From NCBI GenBank assembly GCA_001768195.1, contig MENI01000061.1, positions 48,661 to 83,143 on the forward strand: DNA of 34,483 nucleotides, given 5' to 3'. Below the pieces are notes generated by a model. That model saw only the letters and a program-made list of their open reading frames with translations, was not told the origin of the DNA and made no database searches. The translations under genes and the position numbers were made by a program. This DNA comes from Bacteroidetes bacterium GWA2_40_15 (GTDB lineage Bacteria; Bacteroidota; Bacteroidia; Bacteroidales; VadinHA17). Shown here piece by piece: positions 33,864-34,483 of the stretch. Position 1 is the stretch's first letter, and the number at the start of each line of letters is the position of its first letter.

Positions 33864-33958
33864 AGGGCTTGAAAGAGATGAAGGAGAGAGTTCCCCTCCT
33901 GGGGGCATAGCCGTCAACCTAAGTGAAGTTTTGTGGCAGGAAAGAATGGTATAAGTTT

Positions 33959-34039
33959 CCCCTCCTTTTGAAGGAGGGGTGGCCGCAGTGCAATGATAAT
34001 TAATATATTGCAAAGTCAATCTGCGGCCTGGGTGGTTGA
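33959..34039. repeat. Left palindrome element beside the intact DUF559 gene
   Basis: A perfect hairpin CCCCTCCTT-TTG-AAGGAGGGG (33959-33979) is followed by a nested stem, GGCCGCAG (33981-33988) with CTGCGGCC (34021-34028) enclosing TGCAAT/ATTGCA (33989-33994, 34007-34012), and ends GGGTGGTTGA (34030-34039). The last ten bases are repeated in reverse complement at 34459-34468, on the other side of the gene. A further GTTCCCCTCC lies at about 33890, so an additional partial copy may precede it. Confidence 0.75.
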
Positions 34040-34062
34040 GTGGTTTATCAGATCTTTTTTCC

Positions 34063-34431
34063 TTATTTTTTATTGAAAACTTTCCTTATCTCACTTTTTA
34101 TATATTCAGGTTCACGGAATACAAATCTGTTTTCAAATCTTAATACTGTGAATCCTAAGCTCTCTATGAATTTATCCCTGTTTTCGTCTTCCTGTATTCT
34201 ATGGGATTCCCCGTGGGAATCTCCGTCAAGTTCAATAACAAGTTTTTCTGAAGGACAAGAGAAGTCGACAATGTAACTACCAATACTGAATTGTCTCCTG
34301 AATTTTCTTCCGTCAAGTTGTTTTGATTTTAACATCTCCCATAATGCTGCTTCAGCCGAAGTGGACCTTTTCCTGAGAGATGATCTGAAAGATTTAAGGC
34401 CTTTTCTGTTGAAGATGTTCTCGTTTTTCAT
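34063..34431 (-). CDS. DUF559 domain endonuclease-like protein, intact
   Basis: A 122-residue single-domain protein of the DUF559 family, related to very-short-patch-repair (Vsr-like) endonucleases of the PD-(D/E)xK superfamily. N-terminal STSAEAALWEMLKSKQL is followed by KFRRQFSIGSYIVDF (catalytic Asp) and KLVIELDGDSH (catalytic Glu), then FIESLGFTVLRFENR. All motifs missing from the remnant at 9657-9902 are present here. It is read leftward, towards the epimerase, and sits between inverted copies of a G-rich repeat end. Small DUF559 genes are common and scattered in Bacteroidota; their biological role is not established as far as I know. Confidence 0.88.
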   Translation of the reverse strand: MKNENIFNRKGLKSFRSSLRKRSTSAEAALWEMLKSKQLDGRKFRRQFSIGSYIVDFSCPSEKLVIELDGDSHGESHRIQEDENRDKFIESLGFTVLRFENRFVFREPEYIKSEIRKVFNKK

Positions 34432-34458
34432 GGATGTAAAGATAAAAAAACGAATAAA

Positions 34459-34483
34459 TCAACCACCCCGTCCCGACGCTTCG
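34459..34483. repeat. Right palindrome element beside DUF559, cut by window edge
   Basis: TCAACCACCC at 34459-34468 is the exact reverse complement of 34030-34039. The following GTCCCGACGCTTCG looks like the first arm and loop of a hairpin whose second arm (GGGAC) would lie just outside the window. Confidence 0.65.

Follow-up and report, generated by a model that had tools for sequence, protein, structure and literature searches.

A DUF559 nuclease gene between putative triplex motifs inside an IS231-type cassette: a probable two-layer mobile element

The window, the whole stretch of DNA analysed here, comprises 34,483 nucleotides of contig MENI01000061.1 from Bacteroidetes bacterium GWA2_40_15 (positions 48,661 to 83,143; assembly GCA_001768195.1) and carries at its right end a DUF559 nuclease gene bracketed by inverted C/G palindromes. 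This feature is probably one copy of a two-layer mobile element, in which a nuclease-motif unit is located inside an IS231-type cassette. The inner layer would consist of a DUF559 gene, similar to Vsr and to the homing endonuclease I-Bth0305I, between two inverted intrastrand triplex motifs. The outer layer, confined to the source genome, would consist of IS231-type ends, and the composite would be copied by an IS4-family DDE transposase in trans. The bracket recurs around DUF559 genes of other genomes, the palindromes and their tails have the geometry predicted for triplex motifs, the unit is found in frame inside protein genes, and the cassette ends are accompanied by target duplications. 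The nuclease-palindrome unit is discrete: many genomes carry it without insertion sequence (IS) ends, and housekeeping genes contain it as an in-frame insert.

The window copy and its relatives in the source genome

The window copy comprises the following features.

33906-33923, plus strand: left outer cassette end CATAGCCGTCAACCTAAG, which fits the IS231-subgroup end pattern CAT-------AA--TAA---
33959-33979: C/G hairpin CCCCTCCTT-TTG-AAGGAGGGG, which forms the left triplex motif's stem in a scan with a long second loop
33981-34028: extra hairpin GGCCGCAG...CTGCGGCC, between the left stem and the third strand
34030-34039, plus strand: left tail GGGTGGTTGA, which forms the third strand together with the preceding base
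34063-34431, minus strand: DUF559 nuclease gene, intact, 122 aa, PD-(D/E)xK (Pfam DUF559, E 1e-33, 115.9 bits)
34459-34469, minus strand: right tail TCAACCACCCC (reverse complement GGGGTGGTTGA)
34470-34483: start of the right extra hairpin GTCCCGACGCTTCG, severed by the contig end

The sequence TCAACCACCC at 34459-34468 is the exact reverse complement of GGGTGGTTGA. A first-pass annotation of this DNA had described a DUF559 gene with its acidic motifs between these two tails, each attached to a C/G-rich palindrome, and this description holds in its coordinates, in the stem at 33959-33979, and in the Pfam match and conserved acidic residues of the intact gene. The outer IS-like end at 33906-33923 was absent from that annotation. 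The NCBIfam match of the gene lies under the cut-off, and Rfam gave nothing above the gathering score in 4 loci. The left third strand mirrors AAGGAGGGG, with T in place of A, and has one mismatch in the window copy. This copy fits a class II motif only with a long second loop and the one mismatch, and the extra hairpin separates the stem from the third strand. Other genomic copies carry an extra hairpin at the same place, with a different sequence in some. The second-loop hairpins vary by copy (GGCCGCAG type, GTCCCGAC type and longer forms in L033), as if repeats nest there.

The right side of the window copy is unreadable because the contig stops where the window stops. The right stem and the right outer end are absent from the assembly, and their continuation is inferred from L036 and L041, which share the same right half. 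These two copies continue CCCCGTCCCGACGCTACCGTCGGGACACCCCTCCTTsAAAAGGAG, followed by AGCC and not GGGG. The first-pass annotation had predicted that the bases to the right complete a GGGAC hairpin and then read CCCCTCC...GGAGGGG; judged on these copies, the hairpin and CCCCTCC were correct, and GGAGGGG was correct only in part.

The arrangement is not a product of chance. The source genome assembly (4.77 Mb, 127 contigs) contains GGGTGGTTGA 60 times in the forward and 64 times in the reverse orientation, which gives 124 tails compared with 1 + 1 for the reversed pattern. Facing pairs make up most of the 100 listed tails of the 124. The genome has 32 DUF559 matches, and among the 30 with inspected flanks the tail lies on both sides of 22, on one side of 5 and on neither side of 3. 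Three of the five one-sided loci are cut by a contig end, one adjoins a run of N and one is unexplained, and the three loci without a tail carry other C/G palindromes when inspected by eye. A related-locus search with a single protein returned 10 loci, 4 of which show at least 70% identity. The DUF559 copies of this genome are under purifying selection, with a median omega of 0.25 (range 0.14-0.42; 8 long copies, 28 pairs).

The enzyme is related to a known homing endonuclease. A profile of 25 DUF559 domains matches the PDB entries 3hrl, an endonuclease-like protein (2.7e-34), and 3r3p_A, a mobile intron protein (2e-6); we take 3r3p to be the homing endonuclease I-Bth0305I. Residues E27, D56, E67, H73 and D82 are invariant in 22 aligned DUF559 rows, and D69 is nearly so. 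E. coli YcjD has been placed close to Vsr within the PD-(D/E)xK superfamily (PMC1189080), and a DUF559 protein from Caulobacter has been termed Vsr-like (PMC12907096).

The inner unit across genomes

A DUF559 match is present in 222/395 Bacteroidota genomes. The bracket was examined at 40 free-standing DUF559 genes from 40 of these genomes (one per genome; best-scoring matches with an open frame under ~300 aa, chosen before the flanks were seen) and was scored by aligning the upstream flank locally with the reverse-complemented downstream flank and taking the best alignment. A score of at least 14 was reached by 26/40 DUF559 loci, compared with 2/53 other open reading frames (ORFs) and 1/102 random places, and a score of at least 20 by 15/40, compared with 0/53 and 0/102. 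Plasmids of other phyla show the same arrangement. Of the 39 plasmid records that match DUF559, 12 were picked for organism spread; the score is at least 14 in 8 of these and at least 20 in 7 (Pseudanabaena, Deinococcus, Sphingomonas). Random control places in three of the plasmid loci reached 18.0, 17.5 and 14.5. The Photobacterium and Azospirillum plasmids have no bracket around DUF559, and phage records gave 3 weak DUF559 matches. In three Deinococcus plasmids (L372, L373 and L378), the bracketed DUF559 gene occupies three different positions in the hpa catabolic gene cluster. The palindrome CCYYTCTCC..GGAGARRGG is found in 60/395 Bacteroidota genomes (reversed control, 8), and DUF559 is found in 50 of these 60 genomes versus 172/335 others (Fisher p 2e-6, a value that ignores phylogeny and assumes that both searches drew the same genomes). 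The nuclease-palindrome unit proposed by the first-pass annotation is real and recurrent in the free-standing loci and in plasmids of other phyla, and the block also moves into metH and leuS, as described below.

In each stem, a short loop joins a C-rich to a G-rich arm, and the tail mirrors the latter, T being accepted in place of A. Palindrome plus tail have the geometry of a class II (purine) intrastrand triplex motif, a fold predicted here from base order. A scan for this motif found 51 in the 44.4 kb that lie no more than 400 bp from the 40 DUF559 domains versus 10 in the remaining 200.9 kb, which makes the motif 23 times denser beside DUF559 than across the rest of the same loci. The motif is present in 24/40 loci and lies on both sides, inverted, in 17/40. 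The tail fits the mirror of its own stem in 68/203 hairpin records, whereas swapped tails fit in a mean of 25.5 and at most 36 (300 shuffles). With G-rich tails only, 68/111 fit versus a mean of 24.7 and a highest count of 36 (500 shuffles), and the unmirrored tail order fits 29. The plasmids contain 21 motifs near DUF559 (9.3 kb) and 21 far from it (54.0 kb), with motifs in 10/12 loci. Where DUF559 lies inside long frames (16 loci), the nearby 13.0 kb hold 30 motifs and the more distant 38.8 kb hold 11, with motifs in 13/16 loci.

The triplex motif is already known. Triplex formation was demonstrated in vitro for TMECO, the motifs occur in more than 260 genomes, and E. coli K-12 carries 23 copies, some as inverted pairs (PMC4666352). 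That work links the motifs to instability in E. coli, and its authors never found mobility functions beside TMECO; in its accessible main text, the words 'endonuclease' and 'DUF' are absent. The literature that our searches reached, in part as excerpts, contained no paper that links DUF559 to intrastrand triplex motifs.

The unit also resides inside translated genes. DUF559 with motif ends is inserted between the two B12 domains of methionine synthase (metH), directly ahead of the editing domain of leucyl-tRNA synthetase (leuS), and between the N-terminal and ATPase domains of HsdR. Pfam identified metH, leuS, hsdR and one Type ISP enzyme as hosts, and the host frames L214 and L218 have no Pfam match. 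Occupied and empty alleles coexist at one conserved site. Of 101 genomes drawn from one genus, 91 match the joined metH flanks; 11 of these sites are filled (all in frame), 76 are whole, 3 show a short variant of the linker and 1 is truncated at a contig end. For leuS, 98 genomes match, of which 80 are whole and 18 split; 5 of the split sites hold a DUF559-size insert (diverged in L396) and 13 hold longer linkers. In L380-L392, from a Flavobacteriaceae-like family (f124), the leuS linker contains several short palindromic repeats in frame that are unrelated to one another, such as TCATTCCGAGCGAAGCGAAGGAATCT and CACCCTGAGCGCAGTCGAAGGGTCT, and is an insertion hot spot in an essential gene.

The metH flank tree includes 12 filled rows (L363 added) and 33 empty rows, with L320 (short flank) and L361 (contig end) dropped. 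It needs 9 changes between filled and empty, at least 6 of which are forced by well-supported forks, and a single clade of filled rows is rejected (approximately unbiased (AU) test, p 5e-142; the groups in the AU tests were named after the trees had been seen). Shuffled labels give similar change counts (mean 10.7; 62/500 as low as observed). In a tree of 63 DUF559 proteins, which has few columns and many open forks and includes 24 of the 40 free-standing loci, 14/15 metH inserts form one supported group that spans three families. The leuS inserts form one group, as do the hsdR inserts, and L348 stands apart. The metH insert and host trees agree in part. L357 is placed differently, and its grouping in the insert tree is rejected by the host data (AU 3e-4). 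These placements are no more than suggestive of horizontal transfer of the metH insert.

A related arrangement is observed in E. coli K-12, where the DUF559 gene ycjD has one motif at a distance of 167 bp, the sole one in the 12 kb examined, which fits the class II scan. The chance of a motif so near is ~0.4% (23 motifs/4.64 Mb; reckoned by hand after the distance had been seen). The K-12 stretch between the aligned fabI and sapF flanks carries ycjD and the motif, and one strain, in which fabI and sapF flank the eef efflux operon, is without both; ycjD plus motif and the eef operon are mutually exclusive in the two strains compared (L379; L400, L402). Of 5375 matching E. coli genomes, 3333 cover at least 80% of the ycjD region. 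The replacement of eef by ycjD in phylogroups A, B1 and C has been read as eef loss (PMC12817139).

The IS231-type cassette

Outside the tails and hairpins lie outer ends of the form CATAGSCGTYAASYTAAG, with 71 in the source genome versus 1 for the control. The cassette ends CATAGCCGTCAACTTAAG fit the IS231-type pattern CAT-------AA--TAA---, and the IS231 subgroup of the IS4 family is described as having ends of this pattern and target duplications of 10-12 bp (PMC2266710). An exact target duplication of 9-11 bp flanks 8/34 two-ended elements, and a duplication with at most one mismatch flanks 14/34, whereas random pairing of flanks (2000 shuffles) yields means of 0.27 exact and 0.95 near-exact duplications and highest counts of 4 and 5. 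The 34 elements derive from 35 pairs after removal of one false pair (L033, 208 bp), and the duplication at the window copy itself is unreadable, its right end being absent. Several of the duplications are C/G palindromes themselves, for example CCCCAAGGGG and CCTTTGAAGG. Two full reference copies cover at least 75% of 30/34 elements (those two counted), and the elements retain between 0 and 122 DUF559 residues. The shorter cassette forms are therefore mostly internal deletions.

The cassette ends are present in 31/198 genomes of the order, the source genome counted, and a reversed control gave one hit in 10/198. Twenty of the 30 other genomes with cassette ends were searched further. A 1.6 kb element in a relative of the same order (L191; G184:C156) has IS231-type ends and encodes a 416-aa IS4-family transposase (NF033592, 167.7 bits) in which the Y-x2-R-x3-E-x6-K spacing is recognised by eye. 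This element is likely an autonomous relative of the cassette. Genomes G195 and G138 contain short elements with cassette ends, two of which (L197 and L211) have exact 10 bp duplications. In G195, L195 and L197 are ~250 bp long and consist of cassette ends and an inverted palindrome-plus-tail pair with no gene.

The cassette is probably copied by an IS4-family DDE transposase in trans, a reading that is well supported. It is the best account of dispersal in the source genome because of the IS231-type ends, the duplications and the IS4-family transposase of the relative. An autonomous transposase with the same ends was sought in the source genome and rejected, as none was recognised among 11 DDE_Tnp_1 matches, and the transposase of the relative has no tblastn match in the source-genome loci examined. 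The transposase may be missing from the data because the assembly lies in 127 contigs. A candidate autonomous copy, L112 (C91), was rejected since it contains short ORFs only. This 1.1 kb element is bounded by outer ends with a 9 bp duplication, and other repeats occupy its interior in place of any long ORF.

Mode of spread

The cassette is the more likely route to the many copies in the source genome. The first-pass annotation had proposed that the nuclease may spread or maintain the palindromes. It need not be what spreads them in this genome because the IS231-type ends and 9-11 bp duplications of the copies mark a DDE transposase. For the inner unit, we infer that nuclease and motifs jointly copy the unit in a homing-like manner. 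The nuclease would nick or cut DNA, either at empty sites or at, or close to, structures such as its own motifs, and repair templated by an occupied copy would bring gene and motifs along, as for homing endonuclease genes. Stop-poor G/C motifs would permit the unit to settle within reading frames. A broader proposal, which we advance tentatively and with somewhat less confidence than the two-layer structure of the window copy, is that DUF559 and triplex motifs represent one widespread class of two-part selfish element, in which a homing-type nuclease would work together with triplex-forming ends to copy the unit into new sites and would leave solo and paired motifs behind as the triplex repeats whose presence in bacterial genomes has long lacked an explanation. 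Such a class would span Bacteroidota, cyanobacteria, Deinococcota and Proteobacteria and would include ycjD with its motif and the in-frame sites in essential genes.

Several results weigh against the two-layer explanation and its homing-like mechanism. The DUF559-carrying cassette is seen in the source genome only, and four DUF559 queries found no match in the end-bearing loci examined in the relatives. None of the 11 DDE_Tnp_1 matches of the source genome has cassette ends. In the metH sites read in their empty state, no motif was already present. The host clade is compatible with the insert data (not rejected, AU 0.19), and transfer between hosts is unproven because of this value and the partial agreement of the insert and host trees. 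Several of the longer leuS linkers hold unrelated in-frame palindromic repeats without DUF559. The leuS site is generally permissive because such unrelated repeats also insert there; same-site insertion may reflect tolerance and not targeting, and the case for sequence-specific homing at leuS is weakened. Free palindromes and unflanked genes, which the first-pass annotation had named as counter-evidence, do exist in part: 14/40 DUF559 genes fall below the bracket threshold, and 10/60 palindrome genomes are without a DUF559 match, one of them with 31 copies. We know of no activity of a DUF559 protein on triplex motifs.

Some of these results would also follow if the nuclease were only a passenger, that is, a chance cargo of an IS231-type cassette in the source genome, with genes and repeats elsewhere gathering in permissive sites. 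The IS231-type ends and target duplications, the acceptance of unrelated palindromic repeats by the leuS linker, and the DUF559-free ends in relatives, some of which enclose just an inverted motif pair (L195, L197), are consistent with this explanation. We nevertheless consider it unlikely, as it does not predict the 23-fold density of the motif beside DUF559 or its inverted placement on both sides in 17/40 loci, the motif recurs in other phyla where IS231-type ends are not needed, and selection preserves the nuclease.

Still less probable is a housekeeping role in which the nuclease, without spreading the unit, serves repair or defence by cutting motif triplexes; the brackets would then persist as marks or regulators of its own gene. 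The Vsr-like fold family (PMC1189080, PMC12907096), the reported link of triplex motifs to instability in E. coli (PMC4666352) and a weak PADLOC match to DpdF point in this direction, but host genes of at least three kinds contain the unit in frame and its presence in metH is scattered, features that look mobile and not like housekeeping repair. Equally improbable is a purely regulatory function, in which the palindromes, as bidirectional terminators or attenuators, would protect a small selfish gene: a short gene flanked by hairpins on both sides and the terminator role presumed for 100 CCCTCTCCC..GGGAGAGGG palindromes in Enterobacter sp. 638 (PMC2869309) fit this idea, but tail and stem co-vary as mirror images, something no terminator requires, the translated frames of metH, leuS and hsdR contain the motifs, and the authors of PMC4666352 saw no hint of a general regulatory role.

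The two-layer element shares features with several known systems. The triplex motifs of PMC4666352 (TM, TMECO) are alike in the G/C hairpin, the mirroring G-rich third strand, the short loops and the frequent inverted pairs. They are tied to no gene in the accessible text of that work, whereas a nuclease family is bracketed here, and the window copy differs from the published motifs in the extra hairpin of its second loop. MIC231 cassettes (PMC2266710) have the same end pattern, duplications of ~10 bp and a passenger that replaces the transposase; in the present cassette the passenger is DUF559 within its own motif bracket, the targets are often C/G palindromes and the host belongs to Bacteroidota. 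The Vsr-like homing endonucleases (3r3p) resemble DUF559 in the profile match and in the scattered, same-site occupancy of conserved genes. Unlike those homing genes, the DUF559 unit involves no intron or intein; its in-frame domain extends the host protein, and paired triplex motifs lie at its ends.

REP/RAYT systems combine dispersed inverted palindrome pairs with a single-domain nuclease gene and gene-less derivatives. An inverted palindrome pair around a single-domain nuclease gene and short gene-less derivatives are found here too, and the likeness to REP/RAYT drawn by the first-pass annotation is valid as an analogy only. Membership was rejected, as the bracketed gene is DUF559 and no HUH Y1 transposase. 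The PD-(D/E)xK nuclease, the triplex-type tail and the in-frame insertions in genes distinguish the DUF559 unit from REP/RAYT. Rickettsia palindromic elements are palindromic repeats located in frame inside protein genes; to our knowledge they encode no nuclease, unlike the DUF559 unit.

A nuclease family bracketed by these motifs is a candidate enzyme for the spread of a common repeat of unknown origin, which makes the proposal directly testable. If correct, it would provide a role for the large DUF559 family, whose function is unknown, and would reveal an element able to reside in translated essential genes without an intron or intein.

The six scanned window proteins (6963-33863) include GHL6, alpha-fucosidase-like, GH32, GH38 and GlcNAc 2-epimerase-like proteins, which indicates a carbohydrate-use region.
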